Part shown: positions 9,201-53,499 of the stretch, piece after piece
Layout: each line of letters begins with the position of its first letter
Position numbering within the stretch: position 1 is the stretch's first letter
Source: Arthrobacter cryoconiti
GTDB taxonomy: Bacteria > Actinomycetota > Actinomycetes > Actinomycetales > Micrococcaceae
Direction: 5' to 3'
Assembly (NCBI RefSeq): GCF_020905375.1
Contig: NZ_JAJJBU010000006.1
Coordinates: forward strand, 1-64,000
DNA: 64,000 bases
Position numbers and translations under genes: made by a program
Notes under the pieces: generated by a model
What the model was told of the DNA's origin: nothing
Databases searched by the model: none
The model's input: only the letters and a program-made list of their open reading frames with translations

Positions 9201-10949
9201 CTACTGGCCCGTTGGGAAATCCGAATCTAGGTATTCCCGGCCCAGGCCAACCGGAACGGGTGCGCCCGGCAACTTTTCTTCGACAGAATCGTTGCCGTGG
9301 CGCACTTCTTCGTTGGCGCGGAGTTGAACGCGGCGAATCTTCCCCGAGATGGTCTTGGGCAGTTCTGAAAATTCCAGGCGACGAATGCGTTTGTAAGCTG
9401 GCAGGTGTTCGCGGCAATACGCGAAGATCTCTCCAGCCAAAGCGTCGCTGGGCTCGTAGGCAGCTGCCAGAACCACGTAGGCTTTGGGAACGTTGAGACG
9501 AAGCGCGTCCGGTGAAGGGACCACAGCGGCCTCGGCAACGGCTGGGTGTTCGATCAGCACGCTTTCGAGCTCGAACGGGGATAGGCGGTAGTCCGAGGAC
9601 TTGAAGACGTCATCGCTGCGGCCCACATAGGTCAAGATCCCATTTTCATCCCGACTTGCGACGTCGCCCGTATGGTAAAAACCATTCCTGAACGCGTCAG
9701 CTGTCTTTTCCGGGTCACCGTAGTAGCCCTTGGTGAGCCCCACAGGGGTGGGATCCAGGCGCAAGCAAAGTTCGCCGTCGTCCGTTTCTTCCCCGGTCAA
9801 CAAGTCCAGCAAAACTACGTCGTAACCCGGCAGAGGGCGGCCCATAGAACCGATCTTCACCGGCTGGCCGGGGGTATTGGCCACCTGGACAGTTGTTTCG
9901 GTCTGGCCGAAACCGTCGCGGATGAGCTGGCCCCACGCTCGCTCAACCTGGCCAATGACCTCGGCGTTGAGCGGCTCACCGGCGGAGACAACCTTTTTGG
10001 GCGGATTTTTCAGCAATGTCAGATCCGCTTGGATCAGCATGCGCCACACGGTGGGGGGAGCGCAGAAACTCGTCACGTGCTCGGCGTCCATTTGGGCCAT
10101 GAGGGCCTTGGCATCAAAGCGCGTGTAGTTGTAGACGAAGACGCAAGCCTCCGCAATCCACGGGGTAAAAACGTTGGACCAGGCATGCTTCGCCCAACCC
10201 GGTGAAGCCACATTGAGGTGAACGTCGCCGGGCTCCAATCCAATCCAATACATGGTGGAGAGATGGCCAACCGGGTACGAAGTGTGAGTATGCTCCACGA
10301 GCTTGGCCTTGGACGTCGTTCCGGAGGTGAAGTAAAGCAGCATGGTTTCGTCCGCCTTGGTGGGTGCGTCCGGAGTGAAAGCCTCCACCGAATCCGCGCT
10401 CCCGGCGTAATCCACGACCGTGCGGCCAGCACCAGGGAGCGCGTCCCCGACATTTACCAAGGTGTAATCCCCGGGAACCTGAGCGAACTTGGGCATGTCT
10501 TCGCCGCGGGCAGCGATCCACGTTGCCGCACCTCGATCCACCCGATCGGCCAAATCTGCTGGCCCCATCATGGTGGTGGTCGGGATCATGACAACGCCGA
10601 GCTTGATGCAGGCAAGCATGAGTTCCCACAGCTCTACCTGGTTGCCAAGCATGATGATCATGTGTTCACCGCGAACAATGCCTTGACCACGCAGCCAATT
10701 GGCCACCTGATTGGAGCGCAGAGACAGTTCCCTGAAAGTGCGTCTGGTTGCGGTGCCATCCGCTTCCACAATGACCAGTGCTGGTTTGTTCCCTGAGGTC
10801 GGATCGGCGGCGATCGCGTCGATCCAGTCCAGTGCGAAGTTGAATTCTTCGAAGTGTGGCCAGGAAAATTCCTTCTGGGCGCGGGCATTGTCCAAGCGCA
10901 GATCCAGTAGTTGTTGGCGCGCGGCACGGAACTCTTGCGTGACGGTCAT
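9201..10949 (-). CDS. AMP-forming acyl-CoA synthetase
   Basis: 582 residues of the ANL superfamily. Core motifs: YFTSGTTSKAKLVEHTH (phosphate loop; Ser-Lys replaces the common Gly-x-Pro), VASPGWAKHAWSNVFTPW, DGFGQTETT, YHTGDVASRDENGILTYVGRSDDVFKSSDYRLSP and the C-terminal catalytic Lys in LPKTISGKIRRVQLR. It activates a carboxylic acid as acyl-AMP and passes it to CoA; the sequence looks closer to medium-chain/acetyl-type synthetases than to long-chain FadD. The ATG at 10949 is chosen because AAGGTGG lies five bases upstream. Confidence 0.9.
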   Translation of the reverse strand: MTVTQEFRAARQQLLDLRLDNARAQKEFSWPHFEEFNFALDWIDAIAADPTSGNKPALVIVEADGTATRRTFRELSLRSNQVANWLRGQGIVRGEHMIIMLGNQVELWELMLACIKLGVVMIPTTTMMGPADLADRVDRGAATWIAARGEDMPKFAQVPGDYTLVNVGDALPGAGRTVVDYAGSADSVEAFTPDAPTKADETMLLYFTSGTTSKAKLVEHTHTSYPVGHLSTMYWIGLEPGDVHLNVASPGWAKHAWSNVFTPWIAEACVFVYNYTRFDAKALMAQMDAEHVTSFCAPPTVWRMLIQADLTLLKNPPKKVVSAGEPLNAEVIGQVERAWGQLIRDGFGQTETTVQVANTPGQPVKIGSMGRPLPGYDVVLLDLLTGEETDDGELCLRLDPTPVGLTKGYYGDPEKTADAFRNGFYHTGDVASRDENGILTYVGRSDDVFKSSDYRLSPFELESVLIEHPAVAEAAVVPSPDALRLNVPKAYVVLAAAYEPSDALAGEIFAYCREHLPAYKRIRRLEFSELPKTISGKIRRVQLRANEEVRHGNDSVEEKLPGAPVPVGLGREYLDSDFPTGQ

Positions 10950-42907: not shown

Positions 42908-43660
42908 TCAGTTACGGACCATGCTCAACTTCCACGTCTCCGGGCCATTCTCAACGTAGTCCACGGCGAACTTTCCGCTTGAGCGTTGCTCTAGCTGCGC
43001 AAGCAGCGGAAGCGGGTTGTGGTTGGCGATCAGCAAGATGCCACGGCCTGCGGTGAGGCCCTCAAGTGCACCGAAGATGGTGGCGTGGCGGATTGCGTGT
43101 GGGATGACCCGGGTGTCTAGCTCCGACAACCCGGGCTCGTCATGGCCGCCGCAGGCGCAACCGCCGGTCGCGGGAGCCGAGCTGGCAGCCTCCACGGTGC
43201 GCTCCGGAAGAATCCCACCCAATTTCAACGCTGGATTCCGTGCCAGGACCGGGATGATCAGCTCTGCGGCGTTGTCCAAAAATGCGGTGGCAGCTTCCTG
43301 CAAACGCGCTCCGGCGTAGACCATCTGCACAGGAGCTTCCTGTGTTTCTAAGGCTTTAGTGGCCTCAATCAATCGTCCGTTGTGCCCTGCGGCTAGGGCG
43401 GCCACTACTGTATCGGCGCCACTGGCGTCATGCAGTGCCTGCGCGAAGGCGCTGGCCAAGGGGAGCAATTCCTGCTCGGCGAAGTCCACAAGCTTGGTTT
43501 GGTCTGTTTCGGCCAGCTCCCCGCCGGTCCCGTTGGCGATTGCTGAGATCAGATTGGAGGAGAGCGTGCCGAGCGTTCCGCTGGCTTCCGCCAAACGGGT
43601 TTTAGCGTTTTCCAACGCGTCGGCTTCTGTTGAGGAGGAGGCAAGAACAAGGTTATTCAC
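42908..43660 (-). CDS. DUF2249 protein with CACGGHD motif
   Basis: 250 residues, GTG start. A helical N-terminal part of about 150 residues is followed by a short Cys/His segment (GGCACGGHDEPG), then the DUF2249 domain (ELDTRVIPHAIRHATIFGALEGLTAGRGILLIANHNPLPLLAQLEQRSSGKFAVDYVENGPETWKLSM). DUF2249 proteins accompany hemerythrins and denitrification genes and may handle redox or NO stress. It is divergent from the Cys-rich regulator of the nitrite reductase cluster. Confidence 0.85.
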   Translation of the reverse strand: MNNLVLASSSTEADALENAKTRLAEASGTLGTLSSNLISAIANGTGGELAETDQTKLVDFAEQELLPLASAFAQALHDASGADTVVAALAAGHNGRLIEATKALETQEAPVQMVYAGARLQEAATAFLDNAAELIIPVLARNPALKLGGILPERTVEAASSAPATGGCACGGHDEPGLSELDTRVIPHAIRHATIFGALEGLTAGRGILLIANHNPLPLLAQLEQRSSGKFAVDYVENGPETWKLSMVRN

Positions 43661-43736: not shown

Positions 43737-44432
43737 ATGCCTGAAACCCAGCTGCACGGACCTAAGCCGGGTGGGGCGGAGCCGGTCGCGCCGATGTCCA
43801 AAGCGCGTGCCGCTGTCCTGGAGCGCCTGCGTTCATCGGATGGGACTATCAACGTGGAAGAGCTCGCCGTCGCCACCGGCCAGCACAGCAATACCGTTCG
43901 TGAACACTTGGAGGCACTGGTGGCTAACGGTTTTGCGACGAGGACGACGTCGGTCAGCACCGGACGCGGGCGGCCTGCCTGGCGCTATGCCCCCGCTATA
44001 GCGGAAACCAGCCCACGCGGCTATGCCGCCTTGGCCGCAGCGCTCGCCGCACAGATTGCTGCCACGAGTGAGAAACCAGCAGCCGCCGGGGAACTTGCCG
44101 GGCGGAGGTGGGCCCATGCGCTCCAAGACACTCCAGCCATCTCCACGCACTCCGCCACCGTGGATCGTGCGTTCCGGGCCCGGGTGGCAGCCGAGCTAGC
44201 GGAAGCCGGCTTCGGTATCCAGGGAAATGCTGCTGCAACAGATTTCACACTCACGACGTGCCCCATACTGGGAGCGGCACGGGAAAATCCGGAGGTTGTT
44301 TGCGCAGTTCACCTTGGCTTGGTCAAGGGGCTCATGGAAGGCAGTGGGATGGCCGAAGACGATGTTGAATTGGTTCCTTTCGCTGGCCCCGGCGCGTGCA
44401 CGCTTCATCTGCCTTCGGTTCCTGCCACGTGA
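43737..44432 (+). CDS. Winged-helix regulator with three C-terminal cysteines (SufR/Fe-S sensor-like)
   Basis: 231 residues from ATG 43737 (a GTG at 43725 is possible; the frame further up is shadow of the DUF2249 gene). HTH: KARAAVLERLRSSDGTINVEELAVATGQHSNTVREHLEALVANGFATR, wing STGRGRPAWRY. The C-terminal part carries Cys175, Cys189 and Cys221 (TTCPILGAARENPEVVC, spacing C-x13-C, then C-x31-C), similar to SufR-type regulators that hold an Fe-S cluster. Placed ahead of a nitrite reductase, it may sense NO or oxygen. Its stop overlaps the start of the membrane protein gene. Confidence 0.85.
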   Translation: MPETQLHGPKPGGAEPVAPMSKARAAVLERLRSSDGTINVEELAVATGQHSNTVREHLEALVANGFATRTTSVSTGRGRPAWRYAPAIAETSPRGYAALAAALAAQIAATSEKPAAAGELAGRRWAHALQDTPAISTHSATVDRAFRARVAAELAEAGFGIQGNAAATDFTLTTCPILGAARENPEVVCAVHLGLVKGLMEGSGMAEDDVELVPFAGPGACTLHLPSVPAT

Positions 44433-45601
44433 GCGTCCCCGTGCGCACCGGAGCCGGTCCGAAGCCGCGTAACCACTCCCGCGACCGTAAAATACGAGCG
44501 TTTTTGCGTAAACCAGCTTTTAGAATGCTGTTCTTGCTACCCGCGGGGGCCGCACTTCTGGTGGGCTTAAACGCTGGCTTGCAGCTCCTGGGTGCAGACG
44601 CCCCGGTGAAGCTGGACAGGCTTCCGGAGATCCACGGCATGCTGTTGGTGCTGTGCTTTGTTGGCACAGTCATCGCTTTAGAACGTACCGTGGCACTGGG
44701 CAAGGCTGTTGGATACGTGTCTCCCGCTCTACTTGGAATCTCCGGCCTTCTGATGATCGCCCCGCTTCCACTATGGGTGGGGAAAGCGGTGTTGCTAGCC
44801 GGAACCATCGCCATGACCTTGGTGTACATTCCGTTGTGGCGTCGTCAACGCGAGAACGTGGTGCTCATTCAAATCTTGGGATCTGTGAGCGCCATTGCGG
44901 CCGCTGCCCTGTGGTTGCGAATCCCCAGCATCGCCATCTTGCTGCCCTTTCTCATCAGCTTCGTGGTGTTGACGATTGCCGGTGAGCGGCTGGAACTGGC
45001 CAGGATCGGCATTACCAGTAAAAAAGCTGAGCCGCTGCTGACGTCGTTGGCCTTCGCCATGACCGCCGCGGCCATGGCTACCTTGTTATGGCCCGCCGTC
45101 GGGTACCCACTGTTTGGCCTGTCCTTGTTGGCCATGGTCGGCTGGCTAGTGCTTTACGACGCCGCCCGTAAGACTGTGCGTTCCACCGGCCTGCCCCGCT
45201 ACATCGCTGCCTGCCTCCTGGCCGGATACGGCTGGCTCGCTATTGCCGGCGTCGTGCTATCAGTGAACCAAACCACTCTTACGGGCCCCGCCTATGACAT
45301 GGTAGTCCACTCCGTATTCTTAGGTTTCACCATTTCCATGATCATGGCTCATGCCCCCGTTATTTTACCGGCCGTACTGCGCAAGCCGTTGCCCTATACG
45401 GAACTCTTCTGGGTTCCGGCAGTGCTCCTCCACGCCTCCTTGCTGCTGCGTTTGGGTCTTGGAGACGCGGCAGGGATTGCGGGTGCCTGGGTGAGCGGTG
45501 GTGTACTGAACGTGATTGCCATCCTTCTCTTCGCTGCCATGGCCTTCTGGCAGGCCACCCATTCACCGAACACTTCCTCTCCTCAAAAGGCCACGGTATG
45601 A
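44429..45601 (+). CDS. Multi-span membrane protein of the nitrite reductase cluster (NnrS-like)
   Basis: 390 residues from GTG 44429, which overlaps the regulator stop (GTGA). About 11-12 spans without large loops; no signal peptide. Stretches such as LPEIHGMLLVLCFVGTVIALERTVALGKA and YDMVVHSVFLGFTISMIMAHAPVILP carry His and Glu residues inside or near spans, as in the heme/copper-binding NnrS family. It overlaps the fusion gene by four bases. NnrS proteins protect against nitrosative stress; that role is inferred here. Confidence 0.8.
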   Translation: MSVPVRTGAGPKPRNHSRDRKIRAFLRKPAFRMLFLLPAGAALLVGLNAGLQLLGADAPVKLDRLPEIHGMLLVLCFVGTVIALERTVALGKAVGYVSPALLGISGLLMIAPLPLWVGKAVLLAGTIAMTLVYIPLWRRQRENVVLIQILGSVSAIAAAALWLRIPSIAILLPFLISFVVLTIAGERLELARIGITSKKAEPLLTSLAFAMTAAAMATLLWPAVGYPLFGLSLLAMVGWLVLYDAARKTVRSTGLPRYIAACLLAGYGWLAIAGVVLSVNQTTLTGPAYDMVVHSVFLGFTISMIMAHAPVILPAVLRKPLPYTELFWVPAVLLHASLLLRLGLGDAAGIAGAWVSGGVLNVIAILLFAAMAFWQATHSPNTSSPQKATV

Positions 45602-48282
45602 ACATCTCACTGACTCCTGCCGGGAAGCCCGCAGTACCCGCTCCCATGAACCGGTCGCGATGGCACCTGCGCGCCAACGCACCTGCCATCGCGTGGCTGC
45701 TGGCTCTTGTCGTTGTGGTGCTTTTTCACCGCAATATTCCGGTGTCCGGGTGGCTTATGGTGCATCTGCTGTTGCTCGGGGCCGTGACGAACTCGATATT
45801 GGTGTGGTCATGGCACTTCGCCCAGGCGCTGCTCCGTGGGCCCAACCCCGGTTCGCGTGGCATGGTGACCCGGCTGGTTTTGCTCAACGCGGCTGTGGTG
45901 GCTGTGGTGGTTTCCATGGTCGCGAACATCTGGGTGCTGACTTTGTTCGGCAGCATCGTTGTGGGCGCTGTAGTGGCGGCTCACGCAGTGGTGTTGGGGC
46001 TGCGCGCGCGCACGTCTCTGCCCTCCCGCTTTGGACCGACAGTCTGGTATTACGTAGCTGCTTGCCTCTTGTTGCCCGTAGGCGCAGGAGTCGGTGCCGC
46101 GCTCGCAGCTGGTCTGCCAGAAGAGTTGCACGCCCGTTTGCTATTGGTCCACATGAGCGTGAACGTTCTGGGATTTGTGGGCATCACAGTGCTCGGGACG
46201 CTGATGACACTGCTGCCTACCATGCTGCACACTCGCGTGGCCGACGGCGCCGAGACCGTTGCGCGGCACGGAGCAGTACCGCTGTTGGCGGGCGTGCTCC
46301 TGACCGCCATTGGCGCTAGTGCCGGGACCATGTTCTTATGCACTGTTGGATTGCTCGTTTACCTGGGTGCGATCGTGTATATCTGCATTCCTTTAGTGAA
46401 GGTGGTGCGGGCCAAACCGGCCGTGACGTTTGCCCCGCTTTCCGCTGTGGCGGCCTTGGTCTGGCTGGTGGTTTCGATCGTGTGGCTGGTGCTGCTGACG
46501 ATGACCGCAGGTGGTTGGGATGGGTTGCACCGTGGCCTTGTGACTGTGGCTCCCGTGCTGGCAGCCGGTTTCGCGGCACAAGTGCTCGGAGCTGCGCTGA
46601 CCTATTTGGCTCCGGTGGTGCTAGGTGGCGGACCGGCAATGCTCAAACACCGGGTAGCCATTTTGGATAAGGTCGGGGTGTTTCGTGTGGTGCTGACGAA
46701 CTTCGCCTTGCTAGTTTCTTTGCTGCCAGTACCGAGCCTGGTCAAGGTAGGCACCAGCTTCCTGGTGCTTGTGGGTCTGGCTTGGATTCTGCCGTTGTTG
46801 GCTTTGGCCTTATTCAAGAAGCCCAGTGGTCCGCGGGAGGACGCTGGCATCGGTGGCGCGGGCATAGCCGCGGGTGCCGCCTTCGACCTTGCCCCCGGGC
46901 GAAGGTGGGGGATGGCAGCGACCGGGATGGCCGTCGTCGTACTGGTCATGGTGGCGGGAGTTATTGCGGACCCCACCACGCTTCCTGGGCTGAACCAGGC
47001 AGCCGCGCAGTCCACGGTGCAGGCCACCGGAGTGACCACTACGGTGGACATCACGATGAAAGACATGCGCTTCCACCCGGACAAGGTGGAAGTACCTCTT
47101 GGCAACAAACTAGTCATCAACGTGGTCAACCAGGATTCGATGGTGCATGATTTGGTCACCGCGGCTGGAGCGGAATCGGGACGGCTTTACCCCGGCGAGA
47201 AAGCCACAGTGGATGCCGGTGTCATTGGTGCGGGCATGGACGGTTGGTGCAGTATTGCCGGGCACAAACAGCAGGGGATGGTGTTTAGCATCGCGGTAAC
47301 CGGTGGGCCAATCGCAGCGCCGTCCGCATCCGCTACACCCGGTGGCGGGATGGCAGGCATGGATCACAGCGGTGCGGGCTCAAGCGCCACCGGCCCCAGT
47401 GCCGCCTCCCTCCTGGATTTTATGAAGAAAGCGCCAGCCGACTTCACCGCACACGATCCGGTAATTCCGGCGTTGCCGCAAGGAAACGTTCATAAGGTGG
47501 CGATGAAGGTCACGGAGCAAAAACAGGATGTGGCTGTGGGGGTGAATCAGACACTGTGGACATTCAACGGCACAGCTCCAGGACCCACACTGCGCGGAAA
47601 AGTGGGGGACAAGTTCATTATTACCCTCACGAATGATGGCTCTCTGGGTCACTCGATCGACCTTCACGCCGGCGCTCTGGCCCCGGACCAGCCAATGCGC
47701 ACCATCAACCCGGGGGAGACATTGACGTATTCCTTCACGGCAACCCGTGCCGGGATCTGGATGTATCACTGCAGCACTATGCCCATGAGTCTTCATATTG
47801 CCAACGGCATGTTTGGCGCTGTCATCATCGATCCGCCCGGGCTGCCCAGTGTGGATAAGGAGTATGTGCTCATTCAGTCGGAACTGTATCTTGGACCGCA
47901 AGGTGGAGTGGCGGACCTGGCCAAAATTCAGGCTGAAAAGCCCGATGCCGTGGTGTTCAACGGCTATGCCAACCAGTACGACTTCCGCCCACTGACCGCC
48001 AAAGTGGGCGAGAAGGTGCGTGTTTGGGTGCTCGACGCCGGTCCCAACAAGGCGACGTCGTTCCACATTGTCGGTGGGCAGCTAAGCACCGTGTGGAGTG
48101 AGGGCCGATACTTACTGGATGGCTCAGATCCGAGCGCCGGATCCCAGGCCCTGGCGCTGGCTCCGGCGCAGGGCGGATTTGTGGAGTTGACGTTCCCGGA
48201 GGCCGGAAACTACCCGTTTGTGTCCCACTATATGGTGGACGCCGAGCGGGGAGCCCATGGAATATTTGCGATCAGTCAGTAG
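45598..48282 (+). CDS. nirK: NnrS-like membrane region fused to cupredoxin and copper nitrite reductase (NirK)
   Basis: 894 residues. Residues 1-460: about 12 membrane spans similar to the preceding protein, including HMSVNVLGFVGITVLGTLMTLLPTMLHTR. Residues 480-570: a cupredoxin with ligands His517, Cys551, His556, Met561. Residues 640-894: two-domain NirK. Type 1 copper: His685, Cys725, His733, Met738. Type 2 copper: His690, His724, His877. Catalytic Asp688 and His823 are kept (GHSIDLH; SFHIVGG). It reduces nitrite to NO on the outer membrane face; the extra cupredoxin can pass electrons to the type 1 site. Linkers are Ala/Gly/Met-rich (GGGMAGMDHSGAG). Confidence 0.95.
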   Translation: MNISLTPAGKPAVPAPMNRSRWHLRANAPAIAWLLALVVVVLFHRNIPVSGWLMVHLLLLGAVTNSILVWSWHFAQALLRGPNPGSRGMVTRLVLLNAAVVAVVVSMVANIWVLTLFGSIVVGAVVAAHAVVLGLRARTSLPSRFGPTVWYYVAACLLLPVGAGVGAALAAGLPEELHARLLLVHMSVNVLGFVGITVLGTLMTLLPTMLHTRVADGAETVARHGAVPLLAGVLLTAIGASAGTMFLCTVGLLVYLGAIVYICIPLVKVVRAKPAVTFAPLSAVAALVWLVVSIVWLVLLTMTAGGWDGLHRGLVTVAPVLAAGFAAQVLGAALTYLAPVVLGGGPAMLKHRVAILDKVGVFRVVLTNFALLVSLLPVPSLVKVGTSFLVLVGLAWILPLLALALFKKPSGPREDAGIGGAGIAAGAAFDLAPGRRWGMAATGMAVVVLVMVAGVIADPTTLPGLNQAAAQSTVQATGVTTTVDITMKDMRFHPDKVEVPLGNKLVINVVNQDSMVHDLVTAAGAESGRLYPGEKATVDAGVIGAGMDGWCSIAGHKQQGMVFSIAVTGGPIAAPSASATPGGGMAGMDHSGAGSSATGPSAASLLDFMKKAPADFTAHDPVIPALPQGNVHKVAMKVTEQKQDVAVGVNQTLWTFNGTAPGPTLRGKVGDKFIITLTNDGSLGHSIDLHAGALAPDQPMRTINPGETLTYSFTATRAGIWMYHCSTMPMSLHIANGMFGAVIIDPPGLPSVDKEYVLIQSELYLGPQGGVADLAKIQAEKPDAVVFNGYANQYDFRPLTAKVGEKVRVWVLDAGPNKATSFHIVGGQLSTVWSEGRYLLDGSDPSAGSQALALAPAQGGFVELTFPEAGNYPFVSHYMVDAERGAHGIFAISQ

Positions 48283-52008: not shown

Positions 52009-52317
52009 CACCATGGAGCCGCGGCGCGGACGACGAGAACGTTCGCGCCGCAGCCGCCGTACTCGATCCTCGAACGCGATGTCCTTCCTATGTGCGCGAA
52101 GTACGACATAGGATTGCTCACCTGGCGCCCCTTGCCTGGGGCCTGCCAACCGGGAAATACAGCAACGGACAGCGAACGCCCATTTCGCCCTGACGTGGGA
52201 TGTGGGTGCCAGCCACCGGCGATCCAAAACGAAAGCCAGCGCAGGCGTCCTCCCGCAGAGCGCAGCGCACTAGCATTCCCCACAATGCCCTCGCCAACTT
52301 TTCTCTCCAGGAGCACC
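52009..52317. other. Intergenic region with two inverted repeats
   Basis: GCGGCGCG (52021-52028) pairs with CGCGCCGC (52044-52051) and could end the PhnB-like transcript. TCCTATGT (52086-52093) pairs with ACATAGGA (52106-52113) and may be an operator or hairpin ahead of the AlkZ-like gene. No gene is seen; the open frame that crosses from 52090 has no ribosome site until the ATG at 52318. Confidence 0.5.
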
Positions 52318-53499
52318 ATGCGCCATGTCCCTAATACCGAGCGGCGCGCCCGACTCGCGCGCCGCCATGCACTCTCACCCGATGCCCACGTGCGCACTGT
52401 CGAAGACGCTACCCGGGCAGTAGTCGCACTGCATGCAACTGATGCGCCCTCGGTACATCTGTCCGTCTGGGCGAGGACGATCGGCGTCGTTCCCGCCGAC
52501 GTTGACCGCGCTTTGTACACTGACCGCACCCTCGTCAAACAGCTTGCAATGAGGCGCACACTCTTCGCATTTCCCAAGGAGCTTCTGCCTGCCGTCTTGC
52601 CAAGCTCTGCTGCTAGGGTCGCGTCGAGCGAACGTGCCAGAATGAGCCGGGATCTTGTGCGTGCAGGCATTGCCAGCGACGGAGGTATCTGGCTGGATCG
52701 GGCAGAGATCGCTGTGGTCGCAGCCCTCACCGGCGGCGTACCTCTCTCGGCGGCGCAACTCAGGCGTGCAGCGCCCCTGATCGACGTAACGGTACAGAGC
52801 ACCGCTGGGGAGAGCTGGTCGGCTCCCCAGGTACTCACCCTCCTCGGCGCCGAAGGAGCGAATATGCGCGGCCCGTGCACGGGTTCTTTCCCTACCGCCC
52901 GACCATTGTGGACGTGTACCTCAAGCTGGCTCGAAGATCCGATTGACAGCTGGACCGCCAAGGATGGTTACCGCGAACTTGTGCGCCGTTGGCTCTTCGC
53001 CTTCGGTCCAGGCACAGAAGATGACATGGTGTGGTGGCTAGGTGCGACGAAGGGGATCGTGCGCGCAGCATTGGAAGACCTCGGCGCGGTAGCGGTTACC
53101 TTGGATCAGTCTGCCGTGGGCTGGCTATTACCAAACGACCTCGAAGAAGTGAGAGATCCTGAACCGTGGACTGCGCTCCTTCCGCCATTAGACCCCACTG
53201 TCATGGGGTGGAAGGGCCGTGGCTTCTACCTTGGTTCCCATCATGGCAGTCTGTTTGACAGCCGCGGGAATGCCGGCACGACGGCGTGGGTCGACGGGCG
53301 CATAGTGGGCTGTTGGATCCAAGACCAGAACGCAACCGTCCGTTTGGGCTTATTGGAAGAGGTTTCCGCAGCAGCCACTCGGTCCCTCAACGATCACGCC
53401 GCAGATCTCACGGAGTGGCTCAACGGTATTCGAAGCCCTACCGGCTACCAATCGTCAATGATGCGCGCCTTAGCCGCCGACTGGTCCCCCAAGCATTAG
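52318..53499 (+). CDS. AlkZ-like winged-helix DNA-binding protein (HTH_42)
   Basis: 393 residues; ATG 52318 follows CAGGAG and starts at the conserved family N-terminus (TERRARLARRHALSP). HTH_42 features: VVALHATDAPSVHLSVWARTIG, LVKQLAMRRTLFAFPKELLPAVL, and GPGTEDDMVWWLGATKGIVRAAL. In DNA glycosylases of this family (AlkZ, YcaQ) the first segment has a catalytic Q-x-Q or Q-x-D; here it reads His-Ala-Thr-Asp. Base-excision activity is therefore doubtful. The second segment (WKGRGFYLG) is normal. Confidence 0.88.
   Translation: MRHVPNTERRARLARRHALSPDAHVRTVEDATRAVVALHATDAPSVHLSVWARTIGVVPADVDRALYTDRTLVKQLAMRRTLFAFPKELLPAVLPSSAARVASSERARMSRDLVRAGIASDGGIWLDRAEIAVVAALTGGVPLSAAQLRRAAPLIDVTVQSTAGESWSAPQVLTLLGAEGANMRGPCTGSFPTARPLWTCTSSWLEDPIDSWTAKDGYRELVRRWLFAFGPGTEDDMVWWLGATKGIVRAALEDLGAVAVTLDQSAVGWLLPNDLEEVRDPEPWTALLPPLDPTVMGWKGRGFYLGSHHGSLFDSRGNAGTTAWVDGRIVGCWIQDQNATVRLGLLEEVSAAATRSLNDHAADLTEWLNGIRSPTGYQSSMMRALAADWSPKH

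Follow-up and report, generated by a model that had tools for sequence, protein, structure and literature searches.

How does a copper nitrite reductase receive its electrons in Gram-positive bacteria in which, to our knowledge, there is no soluble cytochrome c? The question arises for a 64,000-nucleotide stretch of DNA from Arthrobacter cryoconiti (assembly GCF_020905375.1, contig NZ_JAJJBU010000006.1, positions 1 to 64,000; hereafter, the window), in which one open frame on the forward strand (45598-48282) encodes an 894-residue protein (P0001) made of a membrane region (TM1), a cupredoxin, and a copper nitrite reductase (NirK), an architecture that is already known. A first-pass annotation of the same DNA had described this three-part frame, and both the stop-free translation and the Pfam and NCBIfam domains confirm it. 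The product would be a plasma-membrane-anchored copper nitrite reductase (putative activity) with its own electron relay; the full explanation, in which TM1 also carries a haem and draws on menaquinol, has in our judgment a little less than an even chance of being right.

The chain begins with a 12-helix bundle, TM1 (residues 19-406; 45652-46815), and a 13th helix (residues 433-457; 46894-46968) that takes it to the outside, as indicated by AlphaFold2 helices, hydropathy, and loop charges. The multispan region claimed earlier is thus real, with 13 helices in place of about 12. These helices, together with the positive charge in alternate loops, put the N terminus inside and the copper domains outside. 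The cupredoxin domain follows (residues 478-570; 47029-47307; PF13473), its start coinciding with that of the alignment to the Hyphomicrobium denitrificans nitrite reductase (HdNIR) structure 2dv6, and then a low-confidence linker (residues 573-597; 47314-47388; predicted local distance difference test <50) and the NirK domain (residues 601-894; 47398-48279), which has the two-domain copper nitrite reductase (CuNiR) fold. Pfam places a cupredoxin at residues 477-540 and a multicopper oxidase at 638-747, and the NCBIfam model TIGR02376 covers residues 617-889 (165 bits, E 2e-48). This score lies below the equivalog cut-off of 296 bits, as do those of 60 of the 65 actinobacterial genomes with a NirK match at E<=1e-25; the shortfall therefore reflects divergence, the ligands and fold being complete.

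Are both copper proteins intact? Frequencies for named loci refer here to the 80 kept as best matches, 78 of which were aligned with the window to give 79 fusions (L144, a near copy of L143, and L192, which is split, were omitted). The type 1 ligands of the cupredoxin (His517, Cys551, His556, and Met561) are identical in all 79, as are the type 1 ligands His685, Cys725, and His733 of NirK, its type 2 ligands His690, His724, and His877, and its catalytic Asp688 and His823. The axial Met738 of NirK, present in the window, is kept in 70 of the 79 and replaced by Leu in the other 9 (L141, L150, L154, L163, L164, L179, L183, L187, and L194); the Leu may raise the potential of the type 1 copper in these homologues. 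The two ligand sets and catalytic residues named in the first-pass annotation are therefore borne out, and so is its view that donor and enzyme are tethered. With a complete type 1 cupredoxin directly N-terminal to NirK, the protein belongs with the HdNIR class of tethered CuNiR.

How widespread is the fusion? It occupies one frame at 79 of the 80 best-match loci, and a near-full-length, one-frame match is found in 16 of the 23 genomes of the window's genus, its own included. A missed frameshift, which had been raised as a possible source of error, and an artefact or chance are thus rejected. Exceptions are L192, split between cupredoxin and NirK; G016, of the window's genus, also in two frames; and L078, where TM1 and cupredoxin-NirK are two genes. 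A second, unnamed set holds 24 fusion loci, 20 of which were aligned with the window (L073, L078, and L080 lie outside those 24). Among 396 Actinobacteriota genomes, TM1 was found in 51 and NirK (E<=1e-25) in 65; the TM1 and NirK samples were taken as the same genomes, their handles agreeing wherever both list them. In the window's class, the survey found a NirK match in 17 sampled genomes and the fused form in 16 of them, so the fused NirK looks like the usual nitric oxide (NO)-forming nitrite reductase of this class. Two further observations concern single genomes. A genome recorded as Sporosarcina beigongshangi (L129), probably mislabelled, has a fusion that shares 72% identity with that of the window, and G018 (C10:22071-23372) has, besides its fusion, a second, 466-residue cupredoxin-NirK frame without TM1. 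A plasmid collection searched at E 1e-40 gave no match.

What is the membrane region? Two of its histidines, His56 on helix 2 (45763-45765) and His185 on helix 6 (46150-46152), both lie close to the outer face and are invariant in 61 of 61 TM1 sequences and in 79 of 79 fusions. Several Gly, Trp, and Arg residues are invariant as well; the invariant positions include no Cys and no Met. The first-pass annotation had called the region NnrS-like, and this is the claim that fails: the NnrS family (PF05940) matched neither the window's fusion protein in a Pfam run nor, at E<=10, any of 33 aligned TM1 sequences (the window, L068, and 31 of 34 stand-alone frames, with L113, L122, and L125 omitted). 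Across 296 Actinobacteriota genomes, PF05940 had no match above its cut-off and two weak ones, neither in a genome with TM1. The upstream protein described below gave no match either (14 sequences, E<=10), and NnrS membership finds no support in the sequences of either protein. The haem-copper oxidase fold is the better parallel.

The gene before the fusion (44429-45601, forward strand) encodes a second membrane protein, P0002, which is predicted with high confidence to have the twelve-helix fold of haem-copper oxidase subunit I. Its His69 (predicted helix 2) and His294 (predicted helix 10) are present in all 69 aligned sequences (the window and 68 of the 70 P0002 genes of best-match loci; L144 and L192 omitted), and His308 is also invariant. 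The copper B histidines of helices 6 and 7 are missing, residues 168-220 of the window protein containing no His, and there is no His two residues ahead of His294. P0002 precedes the fusion at 70 of the 80 best-match loci and at 10 of the 24 loci of the second set (13 of 16 P0002-like frames were aligned with the window, L073 and two L109 pieces being omitted); a P0002-like gene also adjoins two stand-alone TM1 genes (L109 and L114). The earlier suggestion of a same-type partner thus holds insofar as P0002 is a remote relative of TM1 in type, shares an operon with the fusion, and often accompanies it; the pairing is not obligatory.

Does TM1 share this fold? Profile comparisons suggest that it is probably related to the haem-copper oxidases. 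In plain register, TM1 and P0002 aligned with probabilities of 23.7%, 12.9%, and 27.6% in separate runs; of 12 rotations of P0002, those of six to eight helices did best, with a score of 50.6 (probability 82.6%), against a maximum of 46.4 in 400 helix-scrambled controls. The rotated alignment pairs the invariant histidines, TM1 His56 with P0002 His294 and TM1 His185 with P0002 His69, and sets TM1 Gly61, Trp33, Arg19, and Gly195 on identical P0002 residues; neither His308 nor His129 is matched by a His. Restricted to fused TM1 (105 rows), the comparison scored 40.3 rotated and 28.7 plain; restricted to stand-alone TM1 (34 rows), it scored 41.6 and 32.6. TM1 also aligns with itself when shifted by four helices (75.2, 95.1%), as expected for the pseudo-threefold haem-copper oxidase fold. 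This self-shift scored 86.2 and 82.7 (96%) in 60 rows without the window and the named fusions, unnamed fusions still among them, and 44.6 (46%) in 79 rows of named fusions plus the window; COX1, nitric oxide reductase (NOR), and P0002 profiles showed nothing comparable.

A number of results weigh against this kinship. The plain-register score of 37.3 was exceeded by 4 of 120 scrambles in an earlier set, and the subset scores of 40-43, which have no controls of their own, fall below the top control (46.4) of the full comparison. When four-helix units were compared, in-phase scores (37.7, 27.6, and 29.9) lay within the range of the 200 out-of-phase controls, whose median was 20.9 and maximum 40.8. 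With profiles doubled to accommodate a permutation, TM1 and P0002 scored low against COX1 and NOR (best 8.6%), and reversed controls matched the true scores in several pairs. Purpose-built COX1 and haem-copper oxidase hidden Markov models matched only a few fused TM1 (E 0.0004-0.006), placing helix 6, with His185, on oxidase helix 10 and not helix 2, a register different from that of P0002, which a threefold fold might allow. No TM1 reached the curated PF00115 cut-off of 34.8 bits: two stand-alone TM1 had 25.9 and 24.9 bits in a genome search, which hmmscan did not reproduce, and one fused homologue had just 17.4 bits (E 0.0022). A fold search with the whole fusion model lists NirK structures and covers the soluble end, so the proposed TM1 fold rests on profiles; a sequence search of the PDB with TM1 and P0002 profiles found no match at E<=10.

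Is TM1 linked to NirK where the two are not fused? TM1 was scored as not fused in 35 genomes, and NirK is present in 25 of these, vs. 24 of the 345 that lack TM1 (Fisher p 7e-18, a value that is too small because related genomes were counted apart). The stand-alone carriers with NirK span 13 of 16 family labels, five weak NirK matches being set aside. A NirK- or cupredoxin-type gene lies within five genes at 10 of 33 stand-alone loci. Seven of these neighbours (L106, L107, L108, L110, L116, L120, and L127; p = 6e-12, assuming a chance of 10 in 3500 genes) are identified as NirK by a full set of type 2 ligands and catalytic residues, the divergent NirK of L106 having Gln in the axial Met column; L102 and L105 have another two-domain multicopper oxidase and L101 has a lone cupredoxin. 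The TM1 and NirK genes of L106 and L108 are separated by a gene for a small cupredoxin whose leader is lipobox-like. At L127, the interposed gene (9236-10327, reverse strand) encodes an extra multihelix membrane protein with His in several helices and with no Pfam family or profile match. At L112 and L115, stand-alone TM1 and a SUF operon for iron-sulphur assembly lie in divergent orientation (Pfam was run on L115), with no NirK nearby.

How might electrons reach NirK? TM1 would have a divergent haem-copper oxidase fold that lacks a binuclear centre and carries low-spin haem, with His56 and His185, near the outer face, holding one haem b. Electrons from menaquinol would enter TM1, jointly with P0002 (candidate haem ligands His69 and His294) where it is present. 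On the outer side they would reach the tethered type 1 cupredoxin, then the type 1 copper of NirK, and finally its type 2 copper, where nitrite would be reduced to NO. If true, a membrane haem domain beyond the cupredoxin would directly answer how NirK is fed in Gram-positives and why the cupredoxin is tethered N-terminally. TM1 and P0002 look like relatives of respiratory oxidases and could hand membrane electrons directly to NirK; if the fold reading holds, the haem-copper oxidase fold would also gain a nonoxidase branch. Other observations speak against such a relay. Neither NirK nor a cupredoxin was found within five genes at 23 of the 33 stand-alone loci, some on short contigs, and P0002 was not found at 14 of the 24 second-set loci; TM1 must therefore be capable of functioning in its absence. 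The N-terminal copper of HdNIR and the core type 1 copper are ~24 A apart (available sections of PMC7201279), and loss of the former is reported to have raised activity (excerpts of PMC4770552). The relay would accordingly need domain movement, which linker 573-597 would allow, and it may be dispensable when the donor is soluble. Pulse radiolysis of HdNIR showed the cupredoxin copper to be reduced first, according to the same sections of PMC7201279. Overall, the first-pass observation is confirmed and its interpretation partly supported.

TM1 could instead be just an anchor, with the cytochrome bcc complex, or the subunit of it that carries c-type haem, supplying electrons via the cupredoxin. 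Actinobacteria have a bcc-aa3 supercomplex, and we know of no soluble cytochrome c in them. P0002 is often absent, as this alternative would allow, and the NirK of Intrasporangium calvum is treated as downstream of the Rieske protein in the available text of PMC6349771. However, 12 helices with invariant His56, His185, and several Gly, Trp, and Arg exceed an anchor's needs, and TM1 also co-occurs with NirK as a stand-alone protein, which cannot serve as its anchor; we regard the anchor as unlikely, though with an appreciable chance.

The genomic setting bears on a second alternative, in which TM1 and P0002 handle the product, binding, sensing, or moving NO in an NnrS-like role and so protecting an NO-making cell that has no nitric oxide reductase. 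The P0002 gene overlaps the fusion gene by ATGA and is itself overlapped by GTGA with a winged-helix regulator gene (43737-44432, forward strand, likely start ATG 43737; HTH_IclR/HTH_20); these overlaps make the three genes probably one operon. Three Cys in the C-terminal part of the regulator are kept in 55, 55, and 51 of 62 aligned rows, a pattern that presumably resembles the iron-sulphur regulator SufR, and the protein is possibly an NO or redox sensor for the operon. A divergent DUF2249 gene (42908-43660, reverse strand; PF10006), a family we take to be COG4309, recurs at 62 of the 80 best-match loci at E<1e-15 (63 aligned with the window) and is NO-related by neighbourhood. A scan for promoters and terminators gave no more matches than in shuffles. 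The window's genome has NarG, no match to the quinol-dependent nitric oxide reductase (qNOR), and a single COX1-family protein, which carries the HPEVY motif of oxygen reductases; hence, no haem-copper-type NOR was found in it. Among 38 fusion genomes, qNOR is present in just 8, with no match in 30. The absence of a NOR match speaks for this alternative, and the Cys triad and the DUF2249 neighbour fit an NO context, as does COG4309-norB under NO-responsive regulators in the available part of PMC1274295. Still, neither membrane protein matches NnrS, and the position of the cupredoxin, which follows TM1 and precedes NirK within the chain and lies between their separate genes at L106 and L108, fits electron delivery better; NO handling is therefore rather improbable. 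A role in biogenesis, delivering copper or haem to NirK, is very unlikely, since one-to-one fusion would be unusual for a chaperone and the invariant TM1 residues include neither Cys nor Met, even though L112 and L115 adjoin SUF operons and L102 and L105 lie near a multicopper oxidase. Elsewhere in the window, 52090-53499 is an AlkZ-like DNA glycosylase gene.

Returning to electron delivery, a bolder version seems to us possible but doubtful: TM1 and P0002 would be redox-active offshoots of the haem-copper oxidases that lost, or never had, the binuclear centre; the TM1 haem would sit between helices 2 and 6, displaced from the canonical 2/10 site by one-third of a turn (or by circular permutation); and with the cupredoxin and NirK they would form a menaquinol:nitrite oxidoreductase, the four-helix repeats being a trace of the fold's origin by triplication.

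How does this system compare with known ones? The closest is the ~900-residue actinobacterial NirK of the Propionibacterium acnes type, said in PMC4770552 to have been found earlier, with the same order of parts: a ~400-residue membrane domain, a CX4HX4M cupredoxin, and NirK. The available sections of that paper leave the membrane domain's function unassigned and describe neither a fold nor a partner gene nor free-standing versions of it, and the accessible portions of the open-licence PMC literature assign it neither fold nor haem. Most Actinobacteriota NirK sequences fall in one clade, and Nor is absent in many carriers of clades 2-4 (excerpts of PMC10999283). HdNIR (2dv6, 6tfd, and 6tfo), which matches best both by sequence and by Foldseek (residues 478-894), likewise has a cupredoxin and then NirK but no membrane region, and it is a hexamer (PMC7201279, in part). 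The Ralstonia pickettii enzyme (3ziy) also tethers a donor domain to NirK, as excerpts of PMC7201279 describe; unlike in the window, its donor is a C-terminal cytochrome c, and it has no membrane bundle. NnrS, called a hypothetical haem-copper membrane protein in the available part of PMC1274295, is likewise a membrane protein of NO metabolism, without a sequence match to TM1 or P0002 at E<=10. Haem-copper oxidase subunit I (cbb3, 8smr and 3mk7; cNOR, 4xyd) resembles P0002 in predicted fold and, going by the predicted helices, in His on helices 2 and 10; P0002 shares ~10% identity with it, has no His on helices 6 and 7, and is not an oxidase. The same subunit I fold is probably the remote fold of TM1, and, with the fusion architecture already in print, the proposed kinship of the membrane domain with the haem-copper oxidases is the new part.

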